Shown in pieces: positions 18,769 through 62,928 of a stretch of DNA of 64,000 nucleotides; the first letter of the stretch is position 1; the number at the start of each line of letters is the position of its first letter. The DNA is from Pseudotabrizicola sp. (GTDB lineage Bacteria > Pseudomonadota > Alphaproteobacteria > Rhodobacterales > Rhodobacteraceae). Location of the stretch: the NCBI RefSeq assembly GCF_030684215.1, contig NZ_JAUXOV010000076.1, positions 1 to 64,000 of the forward strand. Direction: 5' to 3'. The notes under the pieces are model-generated. The model ran no database searches. It was not told the DNA's origin and saw only the letters and a list, made by a program, of their open reading frames with translations. The position numbers and the translations under genes were made by a program.

Positions 18769-18773
18769 CGGCG

Positions 18774-45421: not shown

Positions 45422-45429
45422 GGTCTGGC

Positions 45430-46554: not shown

Positions 46555-46563
46555 GTCTTTGCA

Positions 46564-46590
46564 CGACCGGGGCGGGTGTCGCCCCGGTCG
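46564..46590 (-). terminator. hairpin between binding-protein gene and ATPase gene
   Basis: CGACCGGGGC and GCCCCGGTCG form a perfect ten-pair stem with a seven-base loop. There is no T tract. Placed just after a binding-protein gene, it likely protects that mRNA segment and lowers downstream ATPase expression, as is known in other ABC operons. Confidence 0.65.
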
Positions 46591-46607
46591 CAAGGGTCAA
46601 GGGTGGA

Positions 46608-47831
46608 TCAGGCGGACAGGAATTCGTCCCACTTCTGGATCAGCAGGTCGTATTCTGCTGGCCACTGGTGCCAGTAGGCGACGTTGGCCGCACGGGTGGC
46701 AAGCGAGCCACCGTCGCGCAAATCGCCTTCCTTGATGCCGCGCTCTTCAGCGCCGACCCATGGCGCGCCCTCATACCAGAACGCGTATTTCTCTGGCGCC
46801 ATGATGGCTTTGACCTTGTCGTTGGGCGAATAGTACCCCTGTTCCGACACAGCCACGGCTGGCGGACCCGACAGCCAGTAATCGGCATAGGCGGTGACCG
46901 CGTCAAAGTTGGGCGAGGATTTCAGCGCCGAAACCCCGATGGCCCAGCCGCGATAGCCGTTCTTCATGGTGGCATAGGAACATTGCACGCCCTGCGCCTT
47001 GACCGCCATCACGGCAGGCTGCCATGCGTCGGCCAAGATCATCTCGCCCGAGGCAAGCAGGTTGACGAGTTCGCCGAAGTCGCCCCAAAGCGCACGGAAC
47101 TGGCCTTCTTTCTTCTTGGAAATCAGGAACTTCGCGGCTTCTTCGATGGCGGCTGCGTCCGGGTTGCCTGGGTTTGGCACTTCCAGCAGGCCCAATTCGT
47201 TCATGGCCATCACGGCCTGACCAAAGGCGATCAGCGGGTCAACGTTCAGGCCGGTCTTGCCCTTGAACTTGGGGTCGAACAGCGACGACCACATCGACGC
47301 CTCTTCCTCGGACACGAGGTCGGGGCGATAGCCGATCGAGTCGAAGTTATAGACCGTCGGCACCATGTTTAGTGCGGTCTGGCTCTCGTCGGTCCAGATC
47401 TGGCCGACGATCTGCGCGCTGCGGTCCCATTTGTCGGATGGCGTGGTAAAGCTTTCGCCCACGCCGGTCCAGTTCGACAGCGCCGACACCGGGATCGGGG
47501 CCACAAGATCGGTCATCACGATCGATGGCAGACGCTCGCCGATGGTTTCCCAGCAGTCATAAGCGGTGGAGCCGGACAGAAGTTCGGTCTGGGTGTTGGG
47601 GAAGATGTCGGCCTTGCCCGACACCGCACGCACACCCGATGCCGTCTTGAAGTCGTTGAGGATGCGCTCTTGCACCGTCACCGACAGGCCGACCGTGCGC
47701 AATTCCTGCGACGCGAGATCCTGGGCAAAGGCCTGCTGCGCGCCCAGAAAGGGCATACCGCCGGCTGCAAGGGCGACCGATCCTGCAGTTCCCTGCAGAA
47801 AGCGGCGGCGGGATAGGGAATTCATTGTCAT
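46608..47831 (-). CDS. periplasmic substrate-binding protein of spermidine/putrescine type, Tat-exported
   Basis: A 407-residue binding protein. The Tat signal is SRRRFLQGTAG (residues 7-17) with a hydrophobic core, cleaved near AFAQ at ~37. The mature part fits the PotD-like fold, with NMVPTVYNFDSIGYRPD and the closing YWLSGPPAVAVSEQGYY, then WYEGAPW. AGGAGGT stands eight bases before the ATG at 47831, the best ribosome site in the cluster, consistent with high binding-protein output. It has a cytosolic homologue at 53404-54636. Confidence 0.93.
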   Translation of the reverse strand: MTMNSLSRRRFLQGTAGSVALAAGGMPFLGAQQAFAQDLASQELRTVGLSVTVQERILNDFKTASGVRAVSGKADIFPNTQTELLSGSTAYDCWETIGERLPSIVMTDLVAPIPVSALSNWTGVGESFTTPSDKWDRSAQIVGQIWTDESQTALNMVPTVYNFDSIGYRPDLVSEEEASMWSSLFDPKFKGKTGLNVDPLIAFGQAVMAMNELGLLEVPNPGNPDAAAIEEAAKFLISKKKEGQFRALWGDFGELVNLLASGEMILADAWQPAVMAVKAQGVQCSYATMKNGYRGWAIGVSALKSSPNFDAVTAYADYWLSGPPAVAVSEQGYYSPNDKVKAIMAPEKYAFWYEGAPWVGAEERGIKEGDLRDGGSLATRAANVAYWHQWPAEYDLLIQKWDEFLSA

Positions 47832-47891: not shown

Positions 47892-48647
47892 TCAGTAGCG
47901 CCCGACGAGTAGTCCACCGTCGACGACAATGACCTGTCCGGTCATGTATCGGGCAGCGTTGGATGCAAGGAACTGGATCACATCCGCGATGTCTTCGGGT
48001 TCGCCGATGCGCCCCATCGGAATGAATTCCCCCGCCTTTTCGGCCCCTTCGGGACCAAGCGAGTTTTCCTTGGACAAAAGTTGCGCGGTACGGATGTAGC
48101 CTGGGGCCACACCGTTGACGCGGATGCCGTCGCGGGCAAGCTCCACCGCGAGGCCGCGCACCAGACCGACGACACCGGCCTTGGCGGCGGAATAATGCAC
48201 ATGTTCGTCCCAGCCATAGGCGACGCCCATGATCGAGGACAACGCGATGATCGAGCCTTTCTTGCGCGTCTTCATGCCGGGCAGGGCCGGGCGGATCACG
48301 CGGAAGATGCCTTTGAGGTCGATGTCAAAGGTGTGGTCCCATTTTTCATCCGTCAGGGCGGGCAGGGGCACCTTGTGCGCGATCCCGGCATTGGCGACGA
48401 TCACATCGATCCCGCCGCGCGTGGCCTCGATCTGTGCCACCAGCGCATCGGCGGCTTCGGTCGAGCGCACGTCCAGCTTGTGGAATTCGGCGCTGCCACC
48501 TGCGGCCATGATCTCGGCCACAACGGCGTTGCCTTCGGTTTCCAGCACGTCGGTCACGACGATATGATGGCCGTCGCGGGCAAAGGCCAGGGCGGCGGCG
48601 CGGCCAATGCCGATGCCTGCGCCAGTGATGAGAACGGTGTCGGTCAT
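47892..48647 (-). CDS. short-chain dehydrogenase/reductase (1)
   Basis: A 251-residue SDR. The NAD(P) motif is TGAGIGIGRAAAL, followed by NAGIAHK and the catalytic Tyr-Lys in YSAAKAGVVG with Ser in ALSSIMG. The C-terminal PMGRIGEPEDIADVIQF is usual for the classical type. It overlaps SDR 2 by an ATGA. It may oxidise a hydroxyl group of the imported compound. Exact substrate unknown. Confidence 0.9.
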   Translation of the reverse strand: MTDTVLITGAGIGIGRAAALAFARDGHHIVVTDVLETEGNAVVAEIMAAGGSAEFHKLDVRSTEAADALVAQIEATRGGIDVIVANAGIAHKVPLPALTDEKWDHTFDIDLKGIFRVIRPALPGMKTRKKGSIIALSSIMGVAYGWDEHVHYSAAKAGVVGLVRGLAVELARDGIRVNGVAPGYIRTAQLLSKENSLGPEGAEKAGEFIPMGRIGEPEDIADVIQFLASNAARYMTGQVIVVDGGLLVGRY

Positions 48648-49366
48648 AGCATCACATCTCCGGAATTCGGGCCAAGCGTCTGGCCCACAAACAAGGACGC
48701 CGCGGGCGAGCAGAGAAACGCCACCGTGGCGGCCACTTCCTCAGCTTCGCCAAAACGGCCCAAGGGCAGGGTGGCGGCCTTGGCGCGTTGCCAATCTTCG
48801 GACAGGCTGCGCACCAAGGGGGTGTTGATCGGGCCGGGGGCGACCGCATTGACGCGCACGCCCTGCGCCGACACTTCACGCGCCAGGGCCTTTGTCAGGC
48901 CGATGATCCCGGCCTTGGCGGCGGAATAATGCACCAGCTCCACCCCGCCGATCTGACCCAGTTGCGAAGCGACATTGACGATCACGCCCGCGCCCCGGTC
49001 CAGCATCCCGCGCAGCACGGCGTGCGTGCACAGAAAGCTGCCGCGCAAATGGACCGCGATCATCCTGTCGAAGTCAGCAACCGTCAGGTCCAGAAACCGG
49101 CCCTGATGCACGTGGCCCGCGTTGTTGACCAGATGGGTCACCGGGCCAAAGGCCGTCTCGGCTGCCGCCACCATCGCAGCAACATCGGATTCGTCCGACA
49201 CATCGCCGCCGATGCCGTGGGCCGATGCGCCAAGGCCTGCCGCAACCTCTGCCGCCGCTTCGGCGCGGAAGTCATTGACCAGAACCTTGTAGCCATCGGC
49301 CACCAGACGTTCGGCAATGGCGCGCCCGATCCCCGATCCGGCCCCGGTGACGATTGCCACGCTCAT
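48644..49366 (-). CDS. short-chain dehydrogenase/reductase (2)
   Basis: A 240-residue SDR with TGAGSGIGRAIAE, NNAGHVHQG and YSAAKAGIIG. It is clearly related to SDR 1 but not a recent copy. Coupled by ATGA overlaps to the permease upstream and SDR 1 downstream, so both dehydrogenases are translated as part of the transport operon. Confidence 0.9.
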   Translation of the reverse strand: MSVAIVTGAGSGIGRAIAERLVADGYKVLVNDFRAEAAAEVAAGLGASAHGIGGDVSDESDVAAMVAAAETAFGPVTHLVNNAGHVHQGRFLDLTVADFDRMIAVHLRGSFLCTHAVLRGMLDRGAGVIVNVASQLGQIGGVELVHYSAAKAGIIGLTKALAREVSAQGVRVNAVAPGPINTPLVRSLSEDWQRAKAATLPLGRFGEAEEVAATVAFLCSPAASLFVGQTLGPNSGDVML

Positions 49367-50214
49367 GCGATATCCTCCTGCATGGCGGCTTTCTTGGCGC
49401 GGCGCACGGACATCGCCATCAGGATCCCGTAGACTGACAGCAGCGCAAAGGAGAACAGCGTGGTCAGCACCCCGAAGGCAAAGATATTGGGGTGAATTTC
49501 CACCGAGAAGGTGCCGTAGATCGCCAGCGGCAAGGTCTGATCCCGACCAGAGGCAAAGAGCGTGCGCGGGAATTCATCCAAGGACAGCGTGAAGGCAAAG
49601 AGCATCGCCGACAAGACACCCGGAAAGATCAGCGGAAAGGTCACCTTGCGGAACGTGGTCCAAGGGTCCACGCCCAGCGACCAGGCCGCCTCTTCCACGC
49701 TTGCATCAAAGCGGTTGAGGATGGCGAGCATCACGAGGAAGGCAAAGGGGAAGGTATAGGCGACATGGGTGGCAAAGGCGGTGGTATACCAGTGCCGTTC
49801 AATCCCGATCACGTTATTGGCCAAAAGCGAGGTGCCAAGCCCGGTCAGAACGCCCGGCACCATCATGCCCAGCACGATCAGGTAGAACACGACTGTCGAC
49901 CCCTTGAACTTGCGCCGAAAGGCCTGCGCCGACATCACGCCCAGAACGGTCGAGACAACCATGGTCATGAAGGCAAGGATCAGCGAGCGCATTAACGCCT
50001 CGCCCACCGGAAGCGGCGCGATACGCGACGGCGGGGTCAGGCCAAAGATATGTCGATACCAATAGGTGGACCATTCGATGATCGGAAACTGCGGCCCGCC
50101 CTCTGGCCCTTGCTGGAACGAGATGATCGTCAGCACCACAAAGGGACCATAGAGGAACAGAACAAACAGGCCGACGTAGAAACCAAGCAAAGGTTTAAGG
50201 ATACGCGATTCCAT
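49363..50214 (-). CDS. ABC transporter permease, PotC-type
   Basis: A 283-residue inner-membrane permease with six hydrophobic helices. The EAA-type loop is visible around VEEAAWSLGVDPWTTFRKVTF. The N-terminus FYVGLFVLFLYGPFVVL is the first helix. It pairs with the PotB-type permease three bases upstream to form the membrane channel. Confidence 0.92.
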   Translation of the reverse strand: MESRILKPLLGFYVGLFVLFLYGPFVVLTIISFQQGPEGGPQFPIIEWSTYWYRHIFGLTPPSRIAPLPVGEALMRSLILAFMTMVVSTVLGVMSAQAFRRKFKGSTVVFYLIVLGMMVPGVLTGLGTSLLANNVIGIERHWYTTAFATHVAYTFPFAFLVMLAILNRFDASVEEAAWSLGVDPWTTFRKVTFPLIFPGVLSAMLFAFTLSLDEFPRTLFASGRDQTLPLAIYGTFSVEIHPNIFAFGVLTTLFSFALLSVYGILMAMSVRRAKKAAMQEDIA

Positions 50215-50217
50215 GAC

Positions 50218-51090
50218 TTACAGCTCCCGCTTCAGGTCGACGATGCGTAGGAAGCCTGCAATCACGATGCCGATGACCACAGTCAGGATCACCCCCACCA
50301 CCGAGGCCATTGCCCATTTCAGCGACCCGACCTGTGTGACGATGATATTGCCCAACAGGTTGACCTTGCGGCCCGACAAGGCGCCAGAGGTAGCAAATTC
50401 ACCCAAAACCATCACAGAGACAAAGATCGACCCTACGACGACACCGGGCAGCGACAGCGGAAAGATGATCTTCCAGAAGATGCGGCCAAACCCGGCCCCA
50501 AGGTCGCGCGCGGCCTCGATGATGTTGCGGTCAATGCGGGCCAGCATGAAGGCGATGGGGCCCACCATGAACACGCAGTATATCTGTGTCATGCCGATGA
50601 TGACGGACAATTCGGTAAACAGCAGAACCTCGATCGGTTCACGAATGATGCCCAATTTCATCAAGACGATGTTCACCGCTCCCTCTTTGCCCAGCATGGG
50701 CCGCCAGGCCAGCACGCGGATCAGGAAGGATGTCCAGAATGGGATGACGCAGATCACCAGAAGAATGGTGGACAAGGTCTTGCTTTTGATCAGCAATCCG
50801 ACAAAGAGCGCCGTGGGGTAGCCAACCAGAAATGTGGTGGTCAGCACGATCAGCCAGATACGAATCGTGGTCCAGAGCGACCCGGTATAGGTGGCCGAGC
50901 CAAAGAACTGTTTCCAGCTTGCCAGCGTCGGTTCCGGCGAGATGGTAAAGGTGGTCTGGGTCCAGAAGGACACATAGACGATCATAAGGATCGGGGCCAC
51001 GAGGAAGAGGCACATCCAGATGATGCCGGGGGCCAGCAGCAACCGGGTGGTGGCGTTCTGGCGCTTTTCGATGGTGAGGGTATCGGACAT
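50218..51090 (-). CDS. ABC transporter permease, PotB-type
   Basis: A 290-residue permease with six helices. The coupling loop lies in IIEAARDLGAGFGRIFWKIIF. The start is MSDTLTIEKR at 51090, overlapping the ATPase stop by one base (TGATG). A longer reading into the ATPase gene is rejected because it lacks a ribosome site. Confidence 0.92.
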   Translation of the reverse strand: MSDTLTIEKRQNATTRLLLAPGIIWMCLFLVAPILMIVYVSFWTQTTFTISPEPTLASWKQFFGSATYTGSLWTTIRIWLIVLTTTFLVGYPTALFVGLLIKSKTLSTILLVICVIPFWTSFLIRVLAWRPMLGKEGAVNIVLMKLGIIREPIEVLLFTELSVIIGMTQIYCVFMVGPIAFMLARIDRNIIEAARDLGAGFGRIFWKIIFPLSLPGVVVGSIFVSVMVLGEFATSGALSGRKVNLLGNIIVTQVGSLKWAMASVVGVILTVVIGIVIAGFLRIVDLKREL

Positions 51091-52166
51091 CACGCTGCCT
51101 CGCGGCCAAAGACGATGGCCTGTTCGGGGTTCCACGTCAGCAGGTAGTCCTGCCGGGGTTCATAGCTGTCGGGGGCACCAAGGCTGAGATGGTGTTCCAT
51201 CTCGATCACATGCCCGTCGCTGGCCTCAAAGAAGTTCATGATCGACGACCCAAGGTATTCTGCGGCGATGAAGGTCGCCTTGACCGCCGGGCCGTCGGGT
51301 GTTGCCGAAACGGGCAGCACCCGCATCCGGTCATAGCGGATGGCATAGACATCTCGGTCGGCGCGCGATGCGCGCGACACAGGCGCAGTGCCAAAGACGC
51401 CGCTGAATTGGTTGCCCGACAAGGTGCCGTCGAACATGTTGAAACGGTTCAGGAAATGCGCCACATCGGGCGAGGCTGGCGTGTCATAGATCTGGTCCGA
51501 CGTGCCGCTCTGGATGATGCGCCCCCGGTCCAGCACGACCACGCGGTCGCCCATGGCAAGGGCTTCGTTCTCGCTGCCCGTCACATGCACAAAGGTCACG
51601 CCAAGCCGTTCGCGGATGGCGCGCAATTCGTTGCGCATCCGGCCACGCAGGTTGGCATCCAGCGCGCCCAGAGGTTCGTCCAGCAAGACAAGCTTTGGCT
51701 GCATGGTGAGGGTGCGGGCAAGCGCCACGCGCTGACGCTGGCCGCCCGAAATCTGGTCCACGCCCCGGTCTTCCATTCCCGAAAGGCCAACCAGATCAAT
51801 CATCTCGCGGCTGCGGCGGTCGATCTCGGCCGCACTCAGCCCGTGTTTGCCATGCGTCAGGCCAAAGCCGATATTCTGGATCACGGTCAGGTGGGGGAAC
51901 AGGGCGAAGTTCTGAAACACGAACCCGATTCCGCGTTCATGCGCGGGCGTGTTGGTGATGTCGCGACCCTGAAAATATACCCGGCCCTGTTCGGGTTGTT
52001 CGAACCCGGCAATGACGCGCAAGAGCGTGGTTTTGCCCGACCCTGACGGCCCGAGGAACGAGATATACTCGTTCTCGCCCGCCGACAGGGTGGCGTTGTC
52101 CAGCGCAACAAGATCGCCGTAGCGCTTTGTCACCCCCTCAAGTCGAAAGACTGCCGTTTCCACCAT
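51090..52166 (-). CDS. ABC transporter ATPase, PotA-type (first in operon)
   Basis: A 358-residue ATPase. Walker A is LGPSGSGKTTL, the Q loop FQNFALFPHL, the signature ISGGQRQRVAL, Walker B LVLLDEPLGALD. A C-terminal TOBE-type domain follows. The ATG at 52166 follows a GAGG element. It is the first gene after the divergent-free, AT-rich control region at 52260-52420. Its binding-protein partner is probably the one at 46608. Confidence 0.92.
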   Translation of the reverse strand: MVETAVFRLEGVTKRYGDLVALDNATLSAGENEYISFLGPSGSGKTTLLRVIAGFEQPEQGRVYFQGRDITNTPAHERGIGFVFQNFALFPHLTVIQNIGFGLTHGKHGLSAAEIDRRSREMIDLVGLSGMEDRGVDQISGGQRQRVALARTLTMQPKLVLLDEPLGALDANLRGRMRNELRAIRERLGVTFVHVTGSENEALAMGDRVVVLDRGRIIQSGTSDQIYDTPASPDVAHFLNRFNMFDGTLSGNQFSGVFGTAPVSRASRADRDVYAIRYDRMRVLPVSATPDGPAVKATFIAAEYLGSSIMNFFEASDGHVIEMEHHLSLGAPDSYEPRQDYLLTWNPEQAIVFGREAA

Positions 52167-52280
52167 CACCTCGTCTGCGTAAAGGCCAGCCGCCGGAGCA
52201 GGCTGCCCTAGTTCTGGTCATCCGCCTTGTCCCATCGTGGCGCAGCGGTCGAAACATAAAAACTGTATATCGTATGAAAT

Positions 52281-52423: not shown

Positions 52424-53407
52424 TTAGACCGGACTAAGGTAGGGGGAGAAAGAGCCGGTTTCACTGATAACGGCGACAATCTTCATCCGCGCCAGATAAC
52501 GGCGGGCCACGATAGACAGGTGGTCTCGCAGGTATTCTGCCGCAGAATCAATGGGATGGCGGGCAATCAGGTCGAACAGTGTGTGATATTGCTCGATCGT
52601 GGTCTCGTCGCGGGGCAGGCCAAGGCCGATCAGCGCCCGATCCACCGCCGAGAGCAGCAGGCCATTGCTGCGGATCATTTCGACGAGGGTCGTGTTCGGT
52701 GCCTGCGCGATACAAAGTTCAAGCAGCGCGTCGCCCAGATATTCCGACGAAATCGCCGGATCCTTGCCGATCCGGTCCAGCACGGTCTCGACATCGGCAT
52801 AACGGATATGCGGCGCGGCCAGTCGCAAGGCCGCAGGCTCGACGATGCTACGCAGCTGGAATTTCTCGCTCACGGTGCGGGCGGTCAGTGGCCCGGCGAT
52901 CCAGTGCGAACTGGCGCTTTTGCGAATCAGGCCACGTTCCTGCAACCGGGCCAGCACGTCGCGCACCACGGTGCGGCTGACGCCCAGATAGTCGGCCAAT
53001 TCGGTTTCAACGATGCGGAATTCGCCAAAGATCTGGCACGAGGCGACCTCTTCCTCGACCTGATCATAGACATGGCGCCATGTGCCGCGGGTTTGCAGCG
53101 CCTCATCCACCTCGGCTGGGATGTCCAGCGGCAGGTCGCGGATATCGCGGCGCAGCGGCACCACGGGTTGCGCCCCGCTGCCCACCAGATAGCCGCGCCC
53201 GTCAAAACGGTGGATCAGGTTTTCATCCAGCAATTGCCGCAGCGCCGATTGCACCGGCACGCGGCTGGTCTGCATCACGGCGGCAATCGGGCCTTCCAGC
53301 AGCACAAAGCCTTCGGGTATGGTGCCGCTGCGGATATTGCTGCGCAAAACGCGGGTAATCAGCTCATAGCGCGGTTCTTGCGCAAGGGGATTGGCCGAAC
53401 GGATCAT
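52424..53407 (-). CDS. GntR/FadR-type regulator with two winged-helix domains
   Basis: A 327-residue regulator. Residues ~12-75 are a winged helix (LITRVLRSNIRSGTIPEGF...VQSALRQLLDENLI), and residues ~110-172 a second one (YDQVEEEVASCQIFGEFRI...LGVSRTVVRDVLARLQERG). An FCD-type effector domain follows (~173-310, with IRYADVETVLDRI and later His-rich helices). GntR proteins normally carry one such domain, so the doubling is unusual. Its ATG overlaps the stop of the signal-less binding-protein homologue (ATGA). It is the likely controller of this cluster. Confidence 0.85.
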   Translation of the reverse strand: MIRSANPLAQEPRYELITRVLRSNIRSGTIPEGFVLLEGPIAAVMQTSRVPVQSALRQLLDENLIHRFDGRGYLVGSGAQPVVPLRRDIRDLPLDIPAEVDEALQTRGTWRHVYDQVEEEVASCQIFGEFRIVETELADYLGVSRTVVRDVLARLQERGLIRKSASSHWIAGPLTARTVSEKFQLRSIVEPAALRLAAPHIRYADVETVLDRIGKDPAISSEYLGDALLELCIAQAPNTTLVEMIRSNGLLLSAVDRALIGLGLPRDETTIEQYHTLFDLIARHPIDSAAEYLRDHLSIVARRYLARMKIVAVISETGSFSPYLSPV

Positions 53408-54636
53408 GCGGCCACCCCCTCGCGGACGCGCCCGATAAAGCGGTCCCATGCCCGTGTGGCATAGTTGTATTCATCCATGACGGTGTTCCAGATGGCGATC
53501 CGTCGGCTGCGCTCGTGATAGGGACCACCCGCACGGCGGGCGCCCGCCTTGACCACCGTATCGCCATCGGGGCCGGCTAGGTCGTGCCGGGCTGCGGCCC
53601 CGTCATACCAATAGGCCCATTCCTCGGGCGTCAGATGCGCCTTTATCGGCTCTGGGTTCGAGATGTAATAACCCTGACGCGCCATGACCGCGCCCGCAAA
53701 TCCCGATAGCCACCAGTTCAGGTATTCATAGGCCATGTCCAGCCCCGCGCCGCGCAGATGCCGCGACAGGCTGGCCCCGCCATGCCAGGCGCGGTAGCCC
53801 TCGATCGGGGCGGATTCGACGAAATGTCCAAAGCCCGCGCCCAGTTTGCCATAGACCGGCGACCACATGCTTTGCACCGCAACCGACCCGTTGCGGATCA
53901 GGTTTGCCGCCGCCTCGCCGTCGCGCCACGCGCCGCAGAAATAGCCCTGCGCCCGGCGATCCTCCAGCAGCGCCATCAGCGCATTGATCTCCTCGATGGT
54001 CATGTTGCCGATATCGGCAAATTCCAGCTCGCCCGAGGCTTCGGCGGCAAGGGCTGCATCAAACAGGCCGATGGCCGGTTCGTCCACCAGCGCGATCCGG
54101 CCCTTGGCGCGCCGGTCCAGCAGCCACGACCAGCTTGGCCGCACATCCGGCCCGGTGCCGAACACCCGCGCGTCAAAGCCGAAACTGTCCATGTTGTGAA
54201 CCGTGGGCAGCATCGAGATCTGCCGTGTGGGCTTGGGGCCCAGAAACCCGCCCGGTTGCACATACAGTTTCTTGACCGGTGCGTCGCCGTGGCCGCGCCA
54301 CGCGTATTTGCTGACGCCGCCTTCCTTGGCCAGCGCGCTGATGTTGCCCCAATCGCGGATGCGGCTGATGTCGATGGGCTGCAATGCGCCCCAGAACCAG
54401 ACGATATCAAGGTTGTGAAAGCATTGCTCGTAGACGTCATAGCCTTCGGGGTCCATCGCGGCCCGGCTTTGGCAGATCGGAAACTCCAGCAATTCGAAAT
54501 CGACATCGAATCCCAGATCGGCGGCGGCCCGCATCCGCACCGGGTCCAGCAGCGTGATCGAGGTGCCGCGCACGCGCAGACGTCGCCGAAGAACGACGGG
54601 CGGGGCAGTCAGGGTGGCGGGCGAAACATTGTCCAT
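53404..54636 (-). CDS. cytosolic homologue of an ABC substrate-binding protein
   Basis: A 410-residue protein of the PotD-like binding-protein fold without a signal peptide. The N-terminus goes straight into a mature-like LRVRGTSITLLDPVRMRA. The end matches the exported protein at 46608: NWWLSG (307-312) and QGYYISN (321-327) against YWLSG and QGYYSPN, then AYWYDGA against AFWYEGA. Its stop overlaps the GntR start, so both are made together. The best reading is a ligand-sensing partner of the regulator rather than a transporter part. The start may be the ATG at 54636 or an upstream GTG at 54642. Confidence 0.85.
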   Translation of the reverse strand: MDNVSPATLTAPPVVLRRRLRVRGTSITLLDPVRMRAAADLGFDVDFELLEFPICQSRAAMDPEGYDVYEQCFHNLDIVWFWGALQPIDISRIRDWGNISALAKEGGVSKYAWRGHGDAPVKKLYVQPGGFLGPKPTRQISMLPTVHNMDSFGFDARVFGTGPDVRPSWSWLLDRRAKGRIALVDEPAIGLFDAALAAEASGELEFADIGNMTIEEINALMALLEDRRAQGYFCGAWRDGEAAANLIRNGSVAVQSMWSPVYGKLGAGFGHFVESAPIEGYRAWHGGASLSRHLRGAGLDMAYEYLNWWLSGFAGAVMARQGYYISNPEPIKAHLTPEEWAYWYDGAAARHDLAGPDGDTVVKAGARRAGGPYHERSRRIAIWNTVMDEYNYATRAWDRFIGRVREGVAA

Positions 54637-54657
54637 GGTCACGGGTCTTTCAACAGG

Positions 54658-54703: not shown

Positions 54704-55672
54704 TCAGCTCAGGCTCGACTCGATGGCGGCCAGCACCGCCGCCCGGTCCTTGCGCGCGGCCAGCGCCTGTTCCATCGTCACCTTGACGAAGCGCGTCGGT
54801 GTGTGTGGTTGCAATTGGCCGATCAGGTCCATATCGGCCGATACCACCGTGCCTACCATGAAATACCCGCCCCCCGACACCGCATCGCGGTGCAGCACGA
54901 TGGGTTCGGTCCCCCCCGGCACCTGCACCGAGCCATAGGGATAGCAGGCATCGACGATGTTCGACGGGTCCGACCCCGCGCCAAAGGGTTGGTCGCGTGG
55001 CACGAATTCCAGCGGCGTGCCGGCCTTGAACCGGTATCCGATGCGGTCGGCCTCTGGCGCGACTTTCCAGGTGTCGTCAAAGAATTGCGCGCCCGCCGCT
55101 TCGGTGATGCGGTGCCAGTACAGCCCCGGCAACATCCGCAATTCGGCAGGTGCGCCGGGCTTGCGCCGCAGGGTCTCTGGGACCGTGCGGCCAGCCGTGC
55201 CGCTGCCAGTCCCGACCGGCAGAACATCCCCCGCCATCAGCTTGCGCCCCTCATGTCCGCCCAGCGCGCCCAGCGTATAGGTCGAGCGCGAGCCCAGAAC
55301 CACCGGCACGTCGATGCCGCCCGAGACCGCGATATAAGCCCGCGCCCCCGACTTGAGAAAGCCGAAGGACAGAACCTGCCCCTTTTTCACCCCAAAAGAG
55401 GTCCAGCCCGCCTGTTCCGCGCCATCGACCTTTGGCGGCATGTCGGCCCCAGTGACGGCCACCACCGCATCGGCGGTGAATTCCAATTCCGGCCCCATGA
55501 ACACCGCCTCCAGCACCGCAGCCCCGGCGGGGTTGCCGACCAGCAGGTTTGCGGCGGCCAGCGACAAGCTGTCCATGCCCCCAGATTGCGGAATCCCGAT
55601 GTGGTAATATCCCGGACGACCCAGATCCTGCACCGTGGTCGACAGGCCGGGTTTGAGCACGTTAATGGCCAT
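54704..55672 (-). CDS. pxpC: 5-oxoprolinase subunit C / AHS2 family protein
   Basis: A 322-residue protein of the AHS2/KipA (PxpC) family, homologous to half of the carboxyltransferase domain of urea carboxylase. Conserved parts include VLKPGLSTTVQDLGRPGYYHIGIPQSGGMD split over the N-terminus, and GRTVPETLRRK. In PxpABC it helps open 5-oxoproline with ATP. Here a biotin carboxylase and carrier are next to it, so it may form a carboxyltransferase with PxpB. It overlaps the PxpB gene by 11 bases. Confidence 0.9.
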   Translation of the reverse strand: MAINVLKPGLSTTVQDLGRPGYYHIGIPQSGGMDSLSLAAANLLVGNPAGAAVLEAVFMGPELEFTADAVVAVTGADMPPKVDGAEQAGWTSFGVKKGQVLSFGFLKSGARAYIAVSGGIDVPVVLGSRSTYTLGALGGHEGRKLMAGDVLPVGTGSGTAGRTVPETLRRKPGAPAELRMLPGLYWHRITEAAGAQFFDDTWKVAPEADRIGYRFKAGTPLEFVPRDQPFGAGSDPSNIVDACYPYGSVQVPGGTEPIVLHRDAVSGGGYFMVGTVVSADMDLIGQLQPHTPTRFVKVTMEQALAARKDRAAVLAAIESSLS

Positions 55673-56537
55673 TGAGAGCCTCCATCACACGAGCATTGGT
55701 GCCGTCGATATCCTTCTGGAACTCTGCCAGCGAAAAGCGCACGGGGGCAATGCGCGGCATCCAGCGCCCGGCATCGACCTCGGCGACCGTATGATCATAT
55801 TCGGCGCGGTCGATGGGTTTCCATTTCACGATGTCCCCCGGTTTGAACAGGCACATGAAATCCTGCAGATAGGGCGTGGTCTGCGCCGGGTCATAGATCG
55901 GCATCGGCGTGATGCCGAACATCTGATACCCGCCCGCACCGCGCACCGAATAGATGCAGGCAAAGCAGCCACCATGCCCCACGGTCAGGCGCGGCGTATC
56001 GGTGCGTGGGCGCAGGTATTTCGGCGACTGGATCTGCCGCGCACGGTCCACCATCTGATACAGGAACGGCAGACCCGCGACGAACCCCACCATCGACACG
56101 AACCACGGCGCGCCGGAATGGGCTTTGACAAAGCCATCGACGCCGTCAAGATTGTTGATCCGGGCCGTATATTCGATGTCGGTCGAGGTCGGGTCCTGAT
56201 GGCGTTCGCGAAACCGCATCAGCGTCTCGTGCGTCCACGGGTCGTTATAGAGCACCGGCACCTCGATGATGCGCGTGTCCAGCGTCGAGGGCGCGGACTG
56301 GGCCGCCGCCTCCAGCGCCTTGAGCTCGCGCATCATGTCGTCGGGCGCGATCACGTCGGGGTCAAAGCGCACCTGAAAGGACGCATTGGCCGGGCAGATT
56401 TCGGTCACGCCCTTGATCTTTGCCTCGCGTAGCGCGTTGGTGATCGACATGCCCTTGAAGAACGCCTCAAGCGACATTTCCTCGTCACATTCGACAAAGA
56501 TGTGTTCATCCCCCCCAAAGGAGTATCTGGTCTTCAT
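55662..56537 (-). CDS. pxpB: 5-oxoprolinase subunit B / AHS1 family protein
   Basis: A 291-residue AHS1/KipI (PxpB) protein. The family core is seen in RFDPDVIAPDDMMREL, the central YTARINNLDGVDGFVKAH, and VGHGGCFACIYSVRGAGG followed by FGITPMPIYDP. It pairs with PxpC. It is coupled to the biotin carboxylase by an ATGA overlap, which supports a shared carboxylase complex. Its N-terminal ~75 residues are longer than those of a minimal KipI. Confidence 0.88.
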   Translation of the reverse strand: MKTRYSFGGDEHIFVECDEEMSLEAFFKGMSITNALREAKIKGVTEICPANASFQVRFDPDVIAPDDMMRELKALEAAAQSAPSTLDTRIIEVPVLYNDPWTHETLMRFRERHQDPTSTDIEYTARINNLDGVDGFVKAHSGAPWFVSMVGFVAGLPFLYQMVDRARQIQSPKYLRPRTDTPRLTVGHGGCFACIYSVRGAGGYQMFGITPMPIYDPAQTTPYLQDFMCLFKPGDIVKWKPIDRAEYDHTVAEVDAGRWMPRIAPVRFSLAEFQKDIDGTNARVMEALNGH

Positions 56538-57916
56538 TCCGTTGTCTCCTCAGTCCCAAGACGATGTGCGTTCTCTTGCAGCCACGGCTCCAGCCAGCGG
56601 GTGTGAAAATCGGCCACTGCCACCTGCCGGTCGCGGGCCAGCAATTGGTGCAGCGGTTTTGTGGTGGGCAGGCCGGTGATGTGCAATTCCTCCAGCGCGC
56701 GCTGCATCCGGGTGATGGCCGAGGCGCGGTCTTCGTCCCAGACGATCAGCTTGCCCAGAAGGGAATCGTAAAACGGCGGCACGGTATAGCCCTGATACAG
56801 CATCGTATCGAAGCGCACGCCCGCGCCGCCCGGCACGGTCAGCGCTTCGATCGTGCCGGGACCGGGCTGGAAATTGCGCGCGGGGTCTTCGGCGCATATC
56901 CGCACCTCGATCGCATGGCCCTTGAGGGAGATGTCCTCCTGCCGGTAGCGCAGCGGCGCGCCGCCTGCGATGCGCAACATCTCGCGCACCAGATCGACGC
57001 CGGTGATCATTTCCGTCACCGGATGTTCGACCTGAATCCTGGTGTTCATCTCGATGAAATAGAAATGCCCCGTGGCATCGTCATAGAGATATTCCAAGGT
57101 TCCCGCCCCGCGATAGCCCACCGCCTCGGCCAAGGCGACGGCAGAGGCGCAGAGTTTTTCGCGCATGGGCTGGGGCAGGGTGGCCGAGGGCGCTTCCTCC
57201 CAGACCTTTTGCCGGCGACGCTGCAAGGAACATTCGCGTTCGAAGAAATGCACGGCCCGTGCGCCATCGCCCAGAATCTGCACCTCGATGTGGCGGGCGC
57301 GTTCAATGACCTTTTCCATATACAGCCCACCATCGCCAAAGGCGGCCTTGGCCTCGGCGCTGGCTTGCGGCATCAGGCGGTCGAATTCGGCCATGTCATG
57401 CGCGATGCGGATGCCCCGCCCGCCACCGCCCGCCGCGGCCTTGATCATCACCGGAAAGCCGATGGCCAGCGCCACGGCCCGCGCCTGTGCCAGATCGTCG
57501 ATCCGCCCATCCGACCCTGGCACAACCGGCACGCCCGCGCTTTCAGCGGCGATGCGCGCGGCCACCTTGTCGCCCATGACCCGGATCGCATCGCCCGAAG
57601 GCCCGACCCAGACCATGCCCGCCGCCACCACCGCATCGGCAAAATCGGCGTTTTCGGCCAGAAAGCCGTAGCCGGGATGCACGGCATCGGCCCCGGTGCT
57701 GGCTGCGGCCTGCAAAATCGCGGGGATGTTCAGATAGGATTTCGCAGCCGAGGGCGGGCCGATGTTCACCGCCTCATCCGCCATGCGCACGGCCAGACTG
57801 TCGGCATCGGCGGCGCTGTGGACCTGCACGGTGCGGATGCCCAGTTCCTTTGCCGCGCGGATGATCCGCACGGCGATTTCGCCCCGGTTAGCGATCAGAA
57901 GTTTGCGGATGAGCAT
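56534..57916 (-). CDS. biotin carboxylase, cluster-specific AccC paralogue
   Basis: A 460-residue biotin carboxylase, second in this window. ANRGEIAVRIIRAAKELG, the glycine-rich loop KAAAGGGGRGIRI, the catalytic RECSLQRRRQKVWEEAPSA and [15 protein letters not shown] are all present. The ATG at 57916 has GGAG five bases before it and is preferred over a GTG two codons upstream. Its presence beside its own biotin carrier and PxpBC points to a dedicated carboxylation, not fatty-acid synthesis, which uses accBC at 17419-19262. Confidence 0.92.
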   Translation of the reverse strand: MLIRKLLIANRGEIAVRIIRAAKELGIRTVQVHSAADADSLAVRMADEAVNIGPPSAAKSYLNIPAILQAAASTGADAVHPGYGFLAENADFADAVVAAGMVWVGPSGDAIRVMGDKVAARIAAESAGVPVVPGSDGRIDDLAQARAVALAIGFPVMIKAAAGGGGRGIRIAHDMAEFDRLMPQASAEAKAAFGDGGLYMEKVIERARHIEVQILGDGARAVHFFERECSLQRRRQKVWEEAPSATLPQPMREKLCASAVALAEAVGYRGAGTLEYLYDDATGHFYFIEMNTRIQVEHPVTEMITGVDLVREMLRIAGGAPLRYRQEDISLKGHAIEVRICAEDPARNFQPGPGTIEALTVPGGAGVRFDTMLYQGYTVPPFYDSLLGKLIVWDEDRASAITRMQRALEELHITGLPTTKPLHQLLARDRQVAVADFHTRWLEPWLQENAHRLGTEETTE

Positions 57917-57918
57917 CG

Positions 57919-58155
57919 TCACTCCAACTCGACAAGCGGCTGGCCCGCCATCACGGGTTCTTCGTCATCGGTGGGAAAGCCGGTGATGATGCCGGCCTGA
58001 TCGGCCACCACCTCGTTGAAGGATTTCATCACCTCGATCAGCCCGATCACATCGCCCACCGCCACCGCGTCGCCAACCGATTTGAAGGCCGGCTGATCGG
58101 GGCTGGGTTTGCGGTAGAAGGTGCCGGGAAGCGGAGAGAGGATCTGTTTGGCCAT
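57919..58155 (-). CDS. small biotin carboxyl carrier protein
   Basis: A 78-residue stand-alone biotinyl domain. The biotin site is EVMKSFNEV with Lys44; the usual motif is EAMKM, so Val and Ser are substitutions also seen in other small carriers. SPLPGTFYRKPSPDQPAFK at the N-terminus resembles acetyl-CoA carboxylase carriers. It ends two bases before the biotin carboxylase start. Confidence 0.9.
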   Translation of the reverse strand: MAKQILSPLPGTFYRKPSPDQPAFKSVGDAVAVGDVIGLIEVMKSFNEVVADQAGIITGFPTDDEEPVMAGQPLVELE

Positions 58156-58196
58156 GGTCTTGTTCCTGTTGGTCGGTTCTTGTTTGTCTGGTCGAA

Positions 58197-58916
58197 TCAG
58201 GCGCGGGGGCGCACCGCATCGCGCACCGCCTGCGCCACCGCCACCGCATTCGGCGTATCGGAATGCACGCAGATCGCGTCGGCGCGCACCGGCACGTCAA
58301 CCCCGCCCACCGACCGCACCACCCCATCCGAAATCGCGCGCAGGCAAGCGGTAGACGCCGCCGCGGGGTCGGTTGCGGCATGTTCGCGGGTGATGATAAG
58401 CCCGCCTTGGTCATTGTAATCAAGGTCGGCATAGAATTCAGACACAAAAATGTGTCCCCGCGCGGTATAGACCTGTTCATGCAGCGTGCCTGCCATGCCA
58501 AACAGCGGCACCCTGAAGATGTCGGCAGCATCGGCCACCGCATGGGCGATGTCCTCCATCCGCGCGGCCATGCCATAGAGCGAGCCATGCGGTTTTATAT
58601 GGTTCAACACCATGCCTTCAGCGTCCAGAAAGCCCTTGAGCGCGCCAATCTGATAGATCAGGCAATTGAGCAATTCCTCGCGCCCGATCTTCATCTCGCG
58701 CCGGCCAAAGCCTTGCAGATCGGGCAGCGACGGATGCGCGCCCACCTTGACCCCGTGCTGTTTGGCAAGGTGCACCGTCTTGCGCATGTGGTTGAAATCG
58801 GACGCATGAAAGCCGCAGGCCACATTGGCCACGTCGATCAGCGGCATCAGCCCCTTGTCATCGCCGATGTGATAAAGGCCAAAGCCTTCGCCCATGTCGC
58901 AATTGATGATCGTCAC
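58197..58916 (-). CDS. pxpA: 5-oxoprolinase subunit A, LamB/YcsF family
   Basis: A 239-residue PxpA protein. The N-terminus INCDMGEGFG, then ANVACGFHASD, VGAHPSLPDLQGFGRR and HIKPHGSLYG are family signatures. The start is a GTG at 58916 with AGGAG upstream; no better ATG is in frame nearby. PxpA acts with PxpB and PxpC on 5-oxoproline. All three subunits plus the carboxylase parts are present here in one run. Confidence 0.92.
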   Translation of the reverse strand: MTIINCDMGEGFGLYHIGDDKGLMPLIDVANVACGFHASDFNHMRKTVHLAKQHGVKVGAHPSLPDLQGFGRREMKIGREELLNCLIYQIGALKGFLDAEGMVLNHIKPHGSLYGMAARMEDIAHAVADAADIFRVPLFGMAGTLHEQVYTARGHIFVSEFYADLDYNDQGGLIITREHAATDPAAASTACLRAISDGVVRSVGGVDVPVRADAICVHSDTPNAVAVAQAVRDAVRPRA

Positions 58917-58978
58917 ACCTGTTTCTCCTGACTTTGGGTGGGGGCGCCTGTGACGACCCCACATGAAACGTCCGTGGC

Positions 58979-61057
58979 TTAGCCTTTGTAATCCAGAACA
59001 TAGACGCCAGACTCGTGCAGTTCTGCCGTCCAGTCCGGTTCGATCACCACCGTTGTCGTCACTTCCTCGATCACGGCAGGACCGATGATCTGGTCGCCCG
59101 CACCAAGTTTTGCGCCCGTATAGACCGGCGTTTCCCGCGACTCCCCGTCGGCGGTAAAGATCATCGCGCGTGTCCCGGCCAGAGCATGGTCGGCCCCTTT
59201 GCCCTTTTCAACAGAAATTCGCTTGGGACGGTCCACACGTCCCCAGATTGCGCTTTCGACATTGACCACTTCGACTACGCTGCCGGGTTCAGAATAGGTA
59301 TAGAGTTCTTCGTGACGGGCATGGAAGGCCGTCTTGAGCTTTTCCAGCGCCGCCGCGTCCAGCGCGAAGGGATCGACATCGACGGTGCATTCATGGACCT
59401 GACCGACATAGCGCATGTCGAGCGAGCGGCGGATCGAGATGCGGTCGGGGCCAAAGCCGTCTTCGGCCAGATCGCGGCGACCCCTGTCCTCCAGCCCGTT
59501 GAACAGACCGTCCAGCTTGGCGGCGGCATCTGCCCCCTCCAGACGCACCGGGGCGGGGGCCATGTAGTTGTATTTGACGTCCGAGATGATCTGGCCATAG
59601 GCGCACAGGCCCGAGGCAAGTTTCGACACCAGCACCCGGCGGATGCCCATTTCCCGCGCCAGCGCCGTGATATGCGCGCCCGTCGCCCCACCTGCACAGT
59701 TCAGCACGAAATCGCGTGGGTCATAGCCGCGTTCGACCGACACGCGGCGGATGGCGTTGACCATGTTGTTGTTCACGATGGTGAACATGCCGTAAGCGGC
59801 CTGTTCCGTGCTCAACCCAAGGGGGTGGCCCAGATCGGCCGTGATCGCCTTGCGGGCCTGTTCGACGTTCAGCGGCAGACGCCCGCCCACCAGACCATCG
59901 TGGTTGAGATAGCCCAGCACAAGGTTCGCATCCGTCGTGGTCGGCCGCTCGCCGCCCTGATCGTAACAGGCCGGACCCGGTTCGGACCCGGCCGATTGTG
60001 GCCCCATCTGCAACAGCCCCATCGAGTCGATCCACCCGATCGACCCGCCGCCCGCGCCAAGCGTTTCGACCTGAATCATAGGAATCCCAATGCGATAGCG
60101 CAGAAAGTCGATGTTCTTTGACACATTCGCGCGCCCGTCGCGGGTCAGCGTGATGTCAAACGAGGTGCCCCCCATGTCTACGGTGATAATGTTCTTCAGG
60201 TCCCATGGCTCGCCGATATAAAGTGCTGCCTGTGGGGCGGAGGCGGGGCCGGAGTTGATGGCATAGACCGACTGGTCCGACACCACCGAGCCAAGCGCCA
60301 GCCCGCCGTTCGACTGGAAATAGCGCACCGGGTTGCGCGCGCCCAAGGACCGGAAATAGCCGTCCACCGCCTCGACATAGGCCGAGAGGATCGGGGCCAG
60401 ATAGGCGTTGACGATGGCGGTCGAGGTGCGGGTGTATTCGCGCACCTGCGGGTAAAGCTGGCTGCCGACGGTCAGGCGCACGCCGGGCATCATCTCGCGC
60501 ACGATTTCGGCGGCGCGCAACTCGTGTTCGGGGTGCAGCACCGACCAGACAAAGGAAATCGCCACCGATTCCACGCCTTCGCGCAGGAAATGTTCGCAGG
60601 CGGCGCGGACATCTTCTTCGTGCAAAGGCGTATGCACCGCCCCGGTGGACACTACCCTCTCGCGCACCGGACAGCGCAGATAGCGCGGCACCAGCATCCG
60701 CGCGGGCGGATATTCCGGGTCGTAGCGATAGCCGTCTTCCTTATGGCCCAGACGGATTTCGATACTGTCCTCATGTCCCTTTGTGGCGATCAGCCCGGTG
60801 CGCGCCCCCTTGTGCTGGATCAGCGCATTGAGGCCCACCGTGGTGCCGTTGATGCACAGGTCGGCGTTGGAGACGATCTCCGTGGCGGTGATGCCGGTTT
60901 CTTCCTCGATCAGCGCCAGACCGTTGCGGATGGCCTGCGTCGGGTCTTGCGGTGTGGACAGCGCCTTGAAGATGCGCAGGTCGCCCGAACGGTCGGCAAG
61001 GATGAAATCGGTGAAGGTGCCGCCGGCATCAATTCCCAGACGGTATTTGTGTTGCAT
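58979..61057 (-). CDS. hyuA: hydantoinase/5-oxoprolinase subunit A (HyuA)
   Basis: A 692-residue ATP-dependent hydrolase subunit. The N-terminal GIDAGGTFTDFILAD is the phosphate-binding loop of the family. Central features are SNGGLALGSVVSD, VDMGGTSFDITL and GAGGGSIGWID, with the C-terminal domain from ~510. With HyuB it hydrolyses hydantoins, 5-oxoproline, caprolactam or N-methylhydantoin in known relatives. The start is the ATG at 61057. Which ring it opens is not decided by sequence. Confidence 0.93.
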   Translation of the reverse strand: MQHKYRLGIDAGGTFTDFILADRSGDLRIFKALSTPQDPTQAIRNGLALIEEETGITATEIVSNADLCINGTTVGLNALIQHKGARTGLIATKGHEDSIEIRLGHKEDGYRYDPEYPPARMLVPRYLRCPVRERVVSTGAVHTPLHEEDVRAACEHFLREGVESVAISFVWSVLHPEHELRAAEIVREMMPGVRLTVGSQLYPQVREYTRTSTAIVNAYLAPILSAYVEAVDGYFRSLGARNPVRYFQSNGGLALGSVVSDQSVYAINSGPASAPQAALYIGEPWDLKNIITVDMGGTSFDITLTRDGRANVSKNIDFLRYRIGIPMIQVETLGAGGGSIGWIDSMGLLQMGPQSAGSEPGPACYDQGGERPTTTDANLVLGYLNHDGLVGGRLPLNVEQARKAITADLGHPLGLSTEQAAYGMFTIVNNNMVNAIRRVSVERGYDPRDFVLNCAGGATGAHITALAREMGIRRVLVSKLASGLCAYGQIISDVKYNYMAPAPVRLEGADAAAKLDGLFNGLEDRGRRDLAEDGFGPDRISIRRSLDMRYVGQVHECTVDVDPFALDAAALEKLKTAFHARHEELYTYSEPGSVVEVVNVESAIWGRVDRPKRISVEKGKGADHALAGTRAMIFTADGESRETPVYTGAKLGAGDQIIGPAVIEEVTTTVVIEPDWTAELHESGVYVLDYKG

Positions 61058-61173
61058 GGGGTGTATCCTTTTGAGTGCGCCCGCCCGTCAGGCGGCGATG
61101 TGGCGGAACGGCGGGGGTTGTCTGCCCCGCAAGTCGCCCGAGGAAAGTCGTGAACAGATGCGCCAATGGCAGG

Positions 61174-62928
61174 TCAGGTGCCCGCCCGCCGCAGCGCGTC
61201 CGTTGCCGCATGATCGACGTTCAGGCTGCTGCGGTCGGTGATGACGACGCCATAGTCGCGCCGCGCGCCTTCTAGGCTGACCAGCCCGTTGCGGACATCC
61301 TCGACCACCTTTTGCACCTCGCGCGCAAAGGCCGGGCCATAGCCGCCGCCGCCGGGGTTCTTGTTGGCGGCGCGTTCGCCTGGTTGGATGGTCTCGATCA
61401 CATTGTCGGTGATGATCTGGGTTTCGCCGTTGCGGGTGATTTCCAGCCGCCCGACCTTTTTCTCGATCCAGTCGGATTTTGCGCCCGCCGCCCCCATGGC
61501 GGGGATCCGGCGGCCTTCGCCAAAGGTGATGAGCGTCATCGGCGTGTCCAGTGGTTCCACCTCCCAACAGGTGCCGGAGCCGCCGCGATGCTTGCCCGCG
61601 CCGCCTGAATCCTCCATCAGCCCATAGCGGTGGATGATGATAGGGTAGCTGTGTTCCAGCATTTCGATGTCTCCGCTGGTCAGCGCGCCAAAACAACATT
61701 CCGGCCCGACCGCATGCCAGCCGTCGGCCTGCGCGGTGGCCCCGGCGCCCGAGATGATCGAGGCCAGCACCATGGTGACATATTCCTCGTCGTGGCGCTT
61801 GTCCCATCCGGCGATGTTGCAGCCATTGGCATGGCCCCAACTTGCCGAGACCTTGTGCGGGGCCGCTTGTTCAAAGGCCAGCCGCACCGCATCGGTAAGC
61901 GTTTCCATCGGCGTCGTGGTGCAGTTCATATGCGGGGCAGGGGCCTTTGCATTGCACAAGGTGCCCTTTGGCCCCATGTCGGTGCTGACACATCGATACA
62001 GCCCTTCGTTGTAGGGGGGCGGCAATTGCGCGAACATCATCAGCCCCAGATAGACGCCGGAATGGCTGTTGCCCTCATAGCTGTTGATGAAATACGGGAT
62101 CTGCGGCGGCGACTGGATGGCGATGTGACAGCCGTCGCCCTTGATCGTCACGGTGGCGGTGATTTCGAAATCGCCATAGCCGTGGCCCGCATCTTCCAGA
62201 ATGGCGGTGCCGGTATAGGTGCCATCCGGGACCTCGGCGATCAGGCCGCGCATATGCGCCTCGGCCATGTCGAGGAGTTCGGCAATGCACTCCTGCACCA
62301 AGGCCTTGCCGTATTTGTCCATCAACCGCTTGAGATTGCGCGCGCCCACCTGACAGGCACCGATCAGCGCGTTGAAATCGCCTTCTTGGTCGCGGCGCGC
62401 GCGCATGTTGATGAGCAAAAGGTTGAGCACATCATTGCGCGGCTTGCCCTTGTCCCAGATCTTGACGGGCGGGATGCGCAGGCCTTCGGCATAGATTTCG
62501 GTCGCATTGGGGTTGTAGCCCGCAGGCACTGGCCCGCCGATGTCGGTCAGGTGGCCCTTGCACACCGTCCAGAACACCAGCTCGCCCTCGTAGAACACCG
62601 GCATATACATGCAGGTGTCGATGATATGGCTGCCGCCATAGGTGGGATCGTTGTGCAAGATCAGGTCGCCGTCGTGGATGTCGCCCTCGAAATACCCGGC
62701 CACCGATTTCATCGCTGGAATCAGCGAGCCAAGGTGAATGGGAATATCCTGTCCTTGCAGGATCATTTCCGGCGTCGCGTTGAACAGCGCGGTGGAATAG
62801 TCATGCGCAAGGTTGAAGACCGAGCTTCTGGCGGTCTGTTCCAGCGCGAGGGTCATCTCGCGCTGTGTGGTTTCCAGCACTCCGCGCACCACGGACAGCG
62901 TAATCGGATCGACGTTGCGTTTGGCCAT
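61174..62928 (-). CDS. hyuB: hydantoinase/5-oxoprolinase subunit B (HyuB)
   Basis: A 584-residue HyuB subunit. The N-terminus DPITLSVVRGVLETTQREM, the metal-site region LHNDPTYGGSHIIDTCMY (given in part), then GGSGTCWEVEP and the glycine-rich NKNPGGGGYGPAFAREV are typical. GGAGG is five bases before the ATG at 62928, which is chosen over a longer frame. It lies 116 bases upstream of hyuA on the same strand. Confidence 0.94.
   Translation of the reverse strand: MAKRNVDPITLSVVRGVLETTQREMTLALEQTARSSVFNLAHDYSTALFNATPEMILQGQDIPIHLGSLIPAMKSVAGYFEGDIHDGDLILHNDPTYGGSHIIDTCMYMPVFYEGELVFWTVCKGHLTDIGGPVPAGYNPNATEIYAEGLRIPPVKIWDKGKPRNDVLNLLLINMRARRDQEGDFNALIGACQVGARNLKRLMDKYGKALVQECIAELLDMAEAHMRGLIAEVPDGTYTGTAILEDAGHGYGDFEITATVTIKGDGCHIAIQSPPQIPYFINSYEGNSHSGVYLGLMMFAQLPPPYNEGLYRCVSTDMGPKGTLCNAKAPAPHMNCTTTPMETLTDAVRLAFEQAAPHKVSASWGHANGCNIAGWDKRHDEEYVTMVLASIISGAGATAQADGWHAVGPECCFGALTSGDIEMLEHSYPIIIHRYGLMEDSGGAGKHRGGSGTCWEVEPLDTPMTLITFGEGRRIPAMGAAGAKSDWIEKKVGRLEITRNGETQIITDNVIETIQPGERAANKNPGGGGYGPAFAREVQKVVEDVRNGLVSLEGARRDYGVVITDRSSLNVDHAATDALRRAGT

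Follow-up and report, generated by a model that had tools for sequence, protein, structure and literature searches.

A predicted biotin-dependent ring-opening system in Pseudotabrizicola sp. that combines PxpA with a split carboxylase of the urea carboxylase lineage

Lactams with five- or six-membered rings resist hydrolysis, and to our knowledge few enzymes accomplish it. The prokaryotic 5-oxoprolinase PxpABC was reportedly described by Niehaus in 2017. The present study concerns a locus within a 64,000-nucleotide stretch of the Pseudotabrizicola sp. genome (contig NZ_JAUXOV010000076.1; the whole stretch is referred to here as the window), in which a pxpA gene lies beside genes for all parts of a split carboxylase resembling urea carboxylase (EC 6.3.4.6), and next to genes of a CapAB-type lactamase, HyuAB.

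Several features of the closest described systems are relevant to this locus. In the accessible text of a study on C. glutamicum, ordinary PxpBC is assumed to phosphorylate its substrate (PMC13274462). Residue K1605 of the Kluyveromyces lactis urea amidolyase (KlUA) is regarded, in the available part of another report, as the probable general base in the carboxyltransferase (CT) reaction, with the K1605A variant retaining about 1/10 of kcat (PMC5770610). The caprolactamase CapAB requires ATP and bicarbonate, and caprolactam hydrolysis was undetectable without bicarbonate, according to the excerpt available (PMC8453981). Split homologues of the urea carboxylase CT were mentioned as an unstudied group in the accessible portion of a 2011 paper (PMC3199775). 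No account of a biotin-dependent PxpA system emerged from a literature search that covered few subscription papers.

The core of the locus (54704–62928, minus strand) contains seven complete genes on the same strand, in the transcription order hyuB-hyuA-pxpA-BCCP-BC-pxpB-pxpC. All of them, including hyuB with its ATG at 62928, are present as given in the initial annotation, an earlier reading of the window by a model. They encode (i) HyuB, a CapB-like lactamase beta subunit (61174–62928; NF050157, 1101.2 bits versus a cut-off of 1000), (ii) HyuA, a CapA-like alpha (ATPase) subunit (58979–61057; NF050156, 1217.4 bits versus 1000), (iii) PxpA of the LamB/YcsF family (58197–58964; PF03746, 288 bits; NF003814, 258.7 bits versus 226), whose true start may be a GTG near 58916, (iv) a 78-aa biotin carboxyl carrier protein (BCCP) with the motif IEVMKSF (57919–58155; PRK07051, 116.2 bits versus 87), (v) a biotin carboxylase (BC) (56534–57922; PRK12833, 779.9 bits versus 686), which was aligned to solved biotin carboxylases, whose motifs were located and whose start codon is GTG, with an alternative ATG possible two codons downstream, (vi) PxpB, corresponding to CT subdomains C/D of the urea carboxylase type (55662–56537; PF02682), and (vii) PxpC, corresponding to CT subdomains A/B of the same type (54704–55672; PF02626). 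The open reading frames (ORFs) of BCCP and BC overlap by 4 nt, those of BC and PxpB by 4 nt and those of PxpB and PxpC by 11 nt, so that the description of these genes as coupled is a fair one. Promoter and terminator scans gave numbers near the shuffled expectation (7 versus 5.4 and 19 versus 15.4) and were not used as evidence.

With BC, the carrier and both CT halves in place, the locus does hold the complete split urea-carboxylase-like set beside PxpA that had been recognized at the outset. We consider it probable that the genes at 54704–58964 encode a five-protein enzyme, assembled as a single complex of BC, BCCP, a two-chain CT and PxpA, that would N-carboxylate a cyclic amide, the activated ring being opened by PxpA. 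In this scheme BC, with ATP and bicarbonate, would carboxylate biotin on the small carrier, and the CT, with K173 of PxpB as the putative general base, would place the carboxyl group on the N-H in the ring of a lactam or cyclic imide. PxpA would then take over this intermediate and hydrolyse the activated ring to an N-carboxy amino acid, which would shed CO2. The net reaction would convert lactam, ATP and water into amino acid, ADP and inorganic phosphate, with bicarbonate being recycled.

The comparison of the CT halves was based on two collections of loci. The first derives from a survey of 299 genomes of the phylum, with matches down to E 4.7e-74; by hand count, 106 of these were stand-alone matches outside the window, of which 100 were fetched with ±8 kb of flanking DNA where the contig allowed it. 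Two entries, the short second ORF of locus L056 and L002 (which duplicates the window), were removed ahead of the count, and the resulting proportions leave out weaker matches, including most from the window's own family. The second collection stems from scanning a single genome for each species, which found at least 590 relatives; the “80 relatives” are the best 80 of these. Trees were calculated for subsamples: 134 rows for PxpB, 133 (quick) and 57 (careful) rows for PxpC, and 119 rows for PxpA.

In alignments with the solved structures 3VA7 and 5I8I, K173 of the window PxpB coincides with K1605 of KlUA. The residue in this general-base column is Lys in the window, in 17 of 17 urea carboxylases and in all 80 relatives, although the latter were picked by similarity to the window PxpB and their count is not independent. 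It is also Lys in six plasmid copies (from Alphaproteobacteria, Actinobacteria and haloarchaea). Within the phylum sample, 13 of the 100 stand-alone loci carry Lys and 87 carry Arg. These are referred to below as Lys-type and Arg-type, the use of Arg as a mark of 5-oxoprolinase being a criterion derived in this analysis and not one from a family definition. In all, 17 PxpB positions, K173 among them, are common to urea carboxylase and the window clade (at least 90% in each) and occur in less than 20% of ordinary PxpB; they include Y174, Y204, Q55 and N128, as well as R112 and P116, which fall where ordinary PxpB has a gap.

The PxpB tree splits off the window clade with support of 100, and this clade, urea carboxylase and the outlier L071 are joined across a branch of support 99, with all 87 Arg rows on the opposite side. 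Long branches meet at the junction of the clade and urea carboxylase, as indicated by a program warning. In the careful PxpC tree this union of the clade, urea carboxylase and L071 is supported at 99/92. On this evidence the window CT halves are placed in the urea carboxylase lineage, in a clade separate from the PxpBC of 5-oxoprolinase and beside, not inside, urea carboxylase. Their kinship with the CT of urea carboxylase, proposed from the start, is therefore borne out more strongly than had been claimed, by the catalytic Lys and by the PxpB and careful PxpC trees. The accompanying name, PxpABC with its own biotin parts, is misleading, since these CT chains belong to a different clade. At locus L071 (G206), BC and carrier genes accompany an outlying Lys-type CT pair; the PxpC half of this pair falls with urea carboxylase itself, and the architecture is possibly an intermediate one.

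The CT halves and their partners form a conserved module. A BC match of at least 550 bits was detected within ±8 kb in 10 of the 13 Lys-type loci and in none of the 87 Arg-type loci, and a carrier match of at least 60 bits in 9 of 13 versus 0 of 87. Of the 80 relatives, 79 have BC, 75 the carrier and 74 a nearby PxpA, the missing BC and carrier genes being due to contig ends that cut the loci. The five genes pxpA-BCCP-BC-CT-CT share a strand in 69 of the 80 (in the window order in 62, with BC and BCCP swapped in 5 and with an extra copy in 2), which shows that the grouping is not a matter of chance. The motif [IV]EVMK[ST]F was present in 66 of 85 carriers, another motif in 4, and it was not located in 15, probably because their ORFs are extended at the start. 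PxpA proteins of Lys-type module loci constitute one group with moderate support (88). Genes of the BioY biotin transporter family (query: the L146 protein; PF02632, 129.5 bits) accompany 22 of the 80 relatives, directly after pxpC in 18, as well as 2 of 13 Lys-type versus 0 of 87 Arg-type loci. A window-type PxpB was matched in 89 plasmid records with E values of 1e-60 or better, haloarchaea and Actinobacteria included.

In public records, the labels at such loci are acetyl-CoA carboxylase for the carrier and BC, carboxyltransferase or allophanate hydrolase subunit for the CT halves, and 5-oxoprolinase for PxpA. This labelling, together with a match of the carrier to the AccB model (72 bits, below its cut-off), would fit a spare acetyl-CoA carboxylase pair placed by coincidence beside an ordinary pxpABC. 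We regard this as very improbable, and the results had already disfavoured it: the gene set is conserved in the relatives, the adjacent CT (PF02626/PF02682) is of the urea carboxylase type, BioY genes accompany 22 of the relatives, and a Pfam scan of 18 cluster proteins identified no AccA or AccD. Moreover, the window contains another BC and biotinyl-domain protein pair (17419–19286), which is taken as the true AccC and AccB. Five biotin carboxylase domains are encoded genome-wide, and the only other PF02626 protein is a full-length urea carboxylase. Since the genome provides further biotin carboxylases as well as a urea carboxylase apart from this set, the window set looks dedicated.

The same inventory bears on whether the locus encodes a 5-oxoprolinase, in which the CT halves would activate 5-oxoproline and biotin carboxylation would replace the phosphorylation assumed for PxpBC. 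In favour of this, the window PxpA exceeds the PxpA cut-off and is the sole PF03746 match in the genome, where a urea carboxylase is the one remaining PF02626 protein. However, both CT halves miss the NCBIfam equivalog cut-offs for PxpB (71.2 bits versus 145.55) and PxpC (215 versus 500), and the neighbouring genes, for short-chain dehydrogenases, an amidase, a PuuE-like hydrolase and CapAB-type proteins, fit a different ring compound. An ordinary Arg-type set is also present in at least 7 of the 13 Lys-type genomes of the phylum sample, with which a second 5-oxoprolinase would be redundant; this co-residence speaks for a different substrate of the Lys-type enzyme. A 5-oxoprolinase thus appears unlikely.

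The HyuAB proteins encoded upstream of the carboxylase module match the solved caprolactamase 6YRA (HyuA, 833 bits to chain A; HyuB, 908 bits to chain B). HyuB keeps the metal tetrad D98/H156/D159/H181 (numbering of the longest ORF) and HyuA both ATP-site aspartates. A CapA-like match of at least 900 bits accompanies 32 of the 80 relatives (upstream in 13, downstream in 18 and on the opposite strand in 1) and none of the 100 phylum loci; a weaker HyuA match is present at 2 of the 13 Lys-type loci and at none of the 87 Arg-type ones. HyuAB is therefore a frequent companion of the carboxylase, not one of its subunits, and is predicted to be a CapAB-type ATP-dependent lactamase in its own right. 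Both CapAB cut-offs are passed, and the original proposal is corrected in that these two genes are optional neighbours of the carboxylase. HyuAB would act as an additional lactamase in a catabolic cluster that also encodes an importer of its own, two dehydrogenases, a PuuE/HP0310-like hydrolase and an amidase.

This cluster runs on beyond the seven genes, downstream to approximately 41.8 kb, all on the minus strand. The gene next to pxpC encodes a solute-binding-protein-like protein (53404–54642) that has no Pfam or NCBIfam match and is syntenic with a protein annotated as extracellular solute-binding. By eye, neither it nor its homologues near 19 fetched loci have an evident signal peptide, and this signal-less binding-protein homologue may have a cytoplasmic role, perhaps as a substrate sensor. 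It is followed by a GntR-family regulator (52424–53449; PF00392, with two GntR-type HTH stretches) and by genes identified in family scans as a PotA-like ABC transporter ATPase (51090–52169), PotB-like (50218–51135) and PotC-like (49363–50214) permeases, and two short-chain dehydrogenases (48644–49366 and 47892–48647). Further downstream are a solute-binding protein with a Tat-like leader, judged by eye (46608–47831; no Pfam or NCBIfam match, 71% identity to a Shinella protein annotated as extracellular solute-binding), a second ABC transporter ATPase (45430–46593; family scans), an amidase (44072–45466; PRK06102, 576.4 bits versus 559), an HP0310/PuuE-like hydrolase of the polysaccharide deacetylase family (43135–44037; 489 bits to 3QBU) and a CobW-type GTPase (41794–42780; PF02492, 126 bits, and PF07683).

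Nearly the whole cluster is repeated on plasmid p2 of Shinella sp. H4-D48, with protein identities of 35–79% (18 proteins compared). The amidase, the PuuE/HP0310-like hydrolase and the CobW-type GTPase recur beside the module in L120, L168, L179 and the Shinella plasmid (L213), and L180 has a deacetylase/CobW-type neighbourhood without a listed amidase. A ribose-type binding protein (more than 80 bits to the L146 protein, itself matching TorT) is encoded near 35 of the 80 relatives, as seen in L129, L132 and L138, and also in L218. In most of these a ribose-type ABC importer replaces the polyamine-type one, and this exchange of importers suggests that the substrates of the relatives differ.

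The clustered PRK06102-family amidase invites comparison with the pairing of urea carboxylase and allophanate hydrolase: the carboxylase and PxpA could have an acyclic amide or a derivative of urea as their substrate, or the amidase could instead carry out the step after the carboxylase. The kinship of the CT with urea carboxylase would suit such a pathway. The amidase, however, is found near only 4 of the 80 relatives, as compared with 74 for PxpA, and the genome already possesses a separate urea carboxylase, which makes an acyclic substrate decidedly improbable.

As regards the ring compound itself, one may speculate that the window dehydrogenases, PuuE-like hydrolase and amidase point to a hydroxylated lactam or imide. 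HP0310, a close homologue of the window hydrolase, was inactive on typical polysaccharides and on allantoin, and the accessible text of the report favours a small-molecule substrate (PMC3084791). Some relatives have other neighbours. In Ruegeria sp. TM1040, where the module is carried by a megaplasmid, both a gamma-aminobutyrate (GABA) transaminase and a semialdehyde dehydrogenase gene are annotated beside the module, and these served as queries (PF00202 and PF00171, respectively). A GABA transaminase of at least 500 bits lies beside 4 of the 80 relatives, three of which also have a semialdehyde dehydrogenase of at least 600 bits; no matches of that strength to either enzyme were found at the 87 Arg-type loci. 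For the relatives with such strong GABA-type neighbours, a gamma-lactam such as 2-pyrrolidone may reasonably be guessed. The GABA lactam was rejected as the substrate in the window, since GABA-type genes are absent from the identified genes of its cluster and lie beside only a few relatives.

Several observations weigh against an N-carboxylating, ring-opening enzyme as outlined above. At the looser threshold of E 1e-20, GABA transaminase matches are found at 9 of 80 relatives, 1 of 13 Lys-type and 2 of 87 Arg-type loci. The quick PxpC tree did not resolve the urea carboxylase grouping, and in the careful tree a union excluding L071 was rejected (p 0.01), because L071 groups with urea carboxylase. 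With the BC threshold lowered to 200 bits, matches appear at 11 of 13 Lys-type and 18 of 87 Arg-type loci; the latter 18 belong to two other BC-linked arrangements, and BC adjacency and Lys do not fully coincide. Loci L021 and L026 have a Lys-type CT and PxpA; neither BC nor carrier is encoded close by, and a carrier that passes the PRK07051 cut-off was found nowhere in their genomes. The carrier motif reads EVMK, not AMKM. Finally, the genes of actinobacterial and archaeal versions are scattered, and in Paenarthrobacter no BC was found among the annotated genes within 10 kb, in a gene table that is incomplete.

A rule by which any BC beside pxpABC would mark a Lys-type enzyme was rejected, as Arg is found in both of the other arrangements, which lie outside the clade. 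The first comprises 13 Arg-type loci (L046, L054, L056, L067, L068, L072–L074, L079, L080, L088, L090 and L100), in 12 of which PxpB and PxpC are fused (they are two ORFs in L056) beside a BC-BCCP-type protein. In six loci that were measured, the BC chain always contained a biotinyl motif and had a mass of 60.6–64.4 kDa in five and 73.8 kDa (a longer ORF) in one, with PxpBC of 56.2–60.1 kDa and PxpA of 26.2–27.4 kDa. The classical P. putida 5-oxoprolinase consists of component A (64 + 51 kDa) and component B (82 kDa), as quoted in the available excerpt of PMC8453981, and in its chain masses the fused arrangement resembles it. The second arrangement (L018, L063, L069, L076 and L096) has AccB- and AccC-like genes beside ordinary Arg-type pxpBC and pxpA. 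On contig 13 of G253, a split Lys-type system (L024) and a fused Arg-type system (L079) are approximately 18 kb apart, within one catabolic region.

The window module may represent a widespread and previously unrecognized class of biotin-dependent ring-opening enzymes in Proteobacteria, Actinobacteria and haloarchaea, in which a split N-carboxylase would make an N-carboxylactam for PxpA, with bicarbonate as a recycled activator; we consider such a class about as likely as not. If true, it would be a new strategy for lactam opening, with possible use for nylon-type lactams, and a second family of biotin enzymes, after urea carboxylase, that carboxylates an amide nitrogen. Annotations would be corrected in hundreds of genomes (at least 590 relatives). 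The Lys versus Arg distinction would provide a sequence test separating CT pairs of the urea carboxylase type from the PxpBC of ordinary 5-oxoprolinase.

A possible counterpart is the P. aeruginosa operon PA0492–PA0496, whose gene labels include a biotin-requiring enzyme and an AccC-like protein in the part of PMC5521831 that is available, and of which PA0493 and PA0494 are printed as being of unknown function in the accessible text of PMC6249292. Its apparent likeness to the module is one of printed gene labels; a function would be on offer for it should the operon prove to be of the same type.

Among characterized systems, CapAB, OplAB and other HyuAB lactamases are matched by the window HyuAB, in which the metal and ATP residues are kept; this is a second lactamase, unrelated to the carboxylase set. 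With the 5-oxoprolinase PxpABC the locus shares the PxpA family, homologous B and C chains and an expected ATP-driven lactam opening, and differs from it in B and C chains below the equivalog level, in Lys in place of Arg and in the accompanying BC and carrier. Urea carboxylase (KlUC/KlUA) has in common with the locus both CT halves, the catalytic Lys, the 17 PxpB positions, BC and the biotin carrier, and carboxylation of an amide nitrogen is likewise expected for the window enzyme. Urea carboxylase, however, is one chain of approximately 1200 aa, whereas the window proteins are four separate chains of a separate clade, with PxpA and not allophanate hydrolase as their partner. By analogy, the proposed succession of N-carboxylation and PxpA-dependent ring opening would parallel that of urea carboxylase and allophanate hydrolase.

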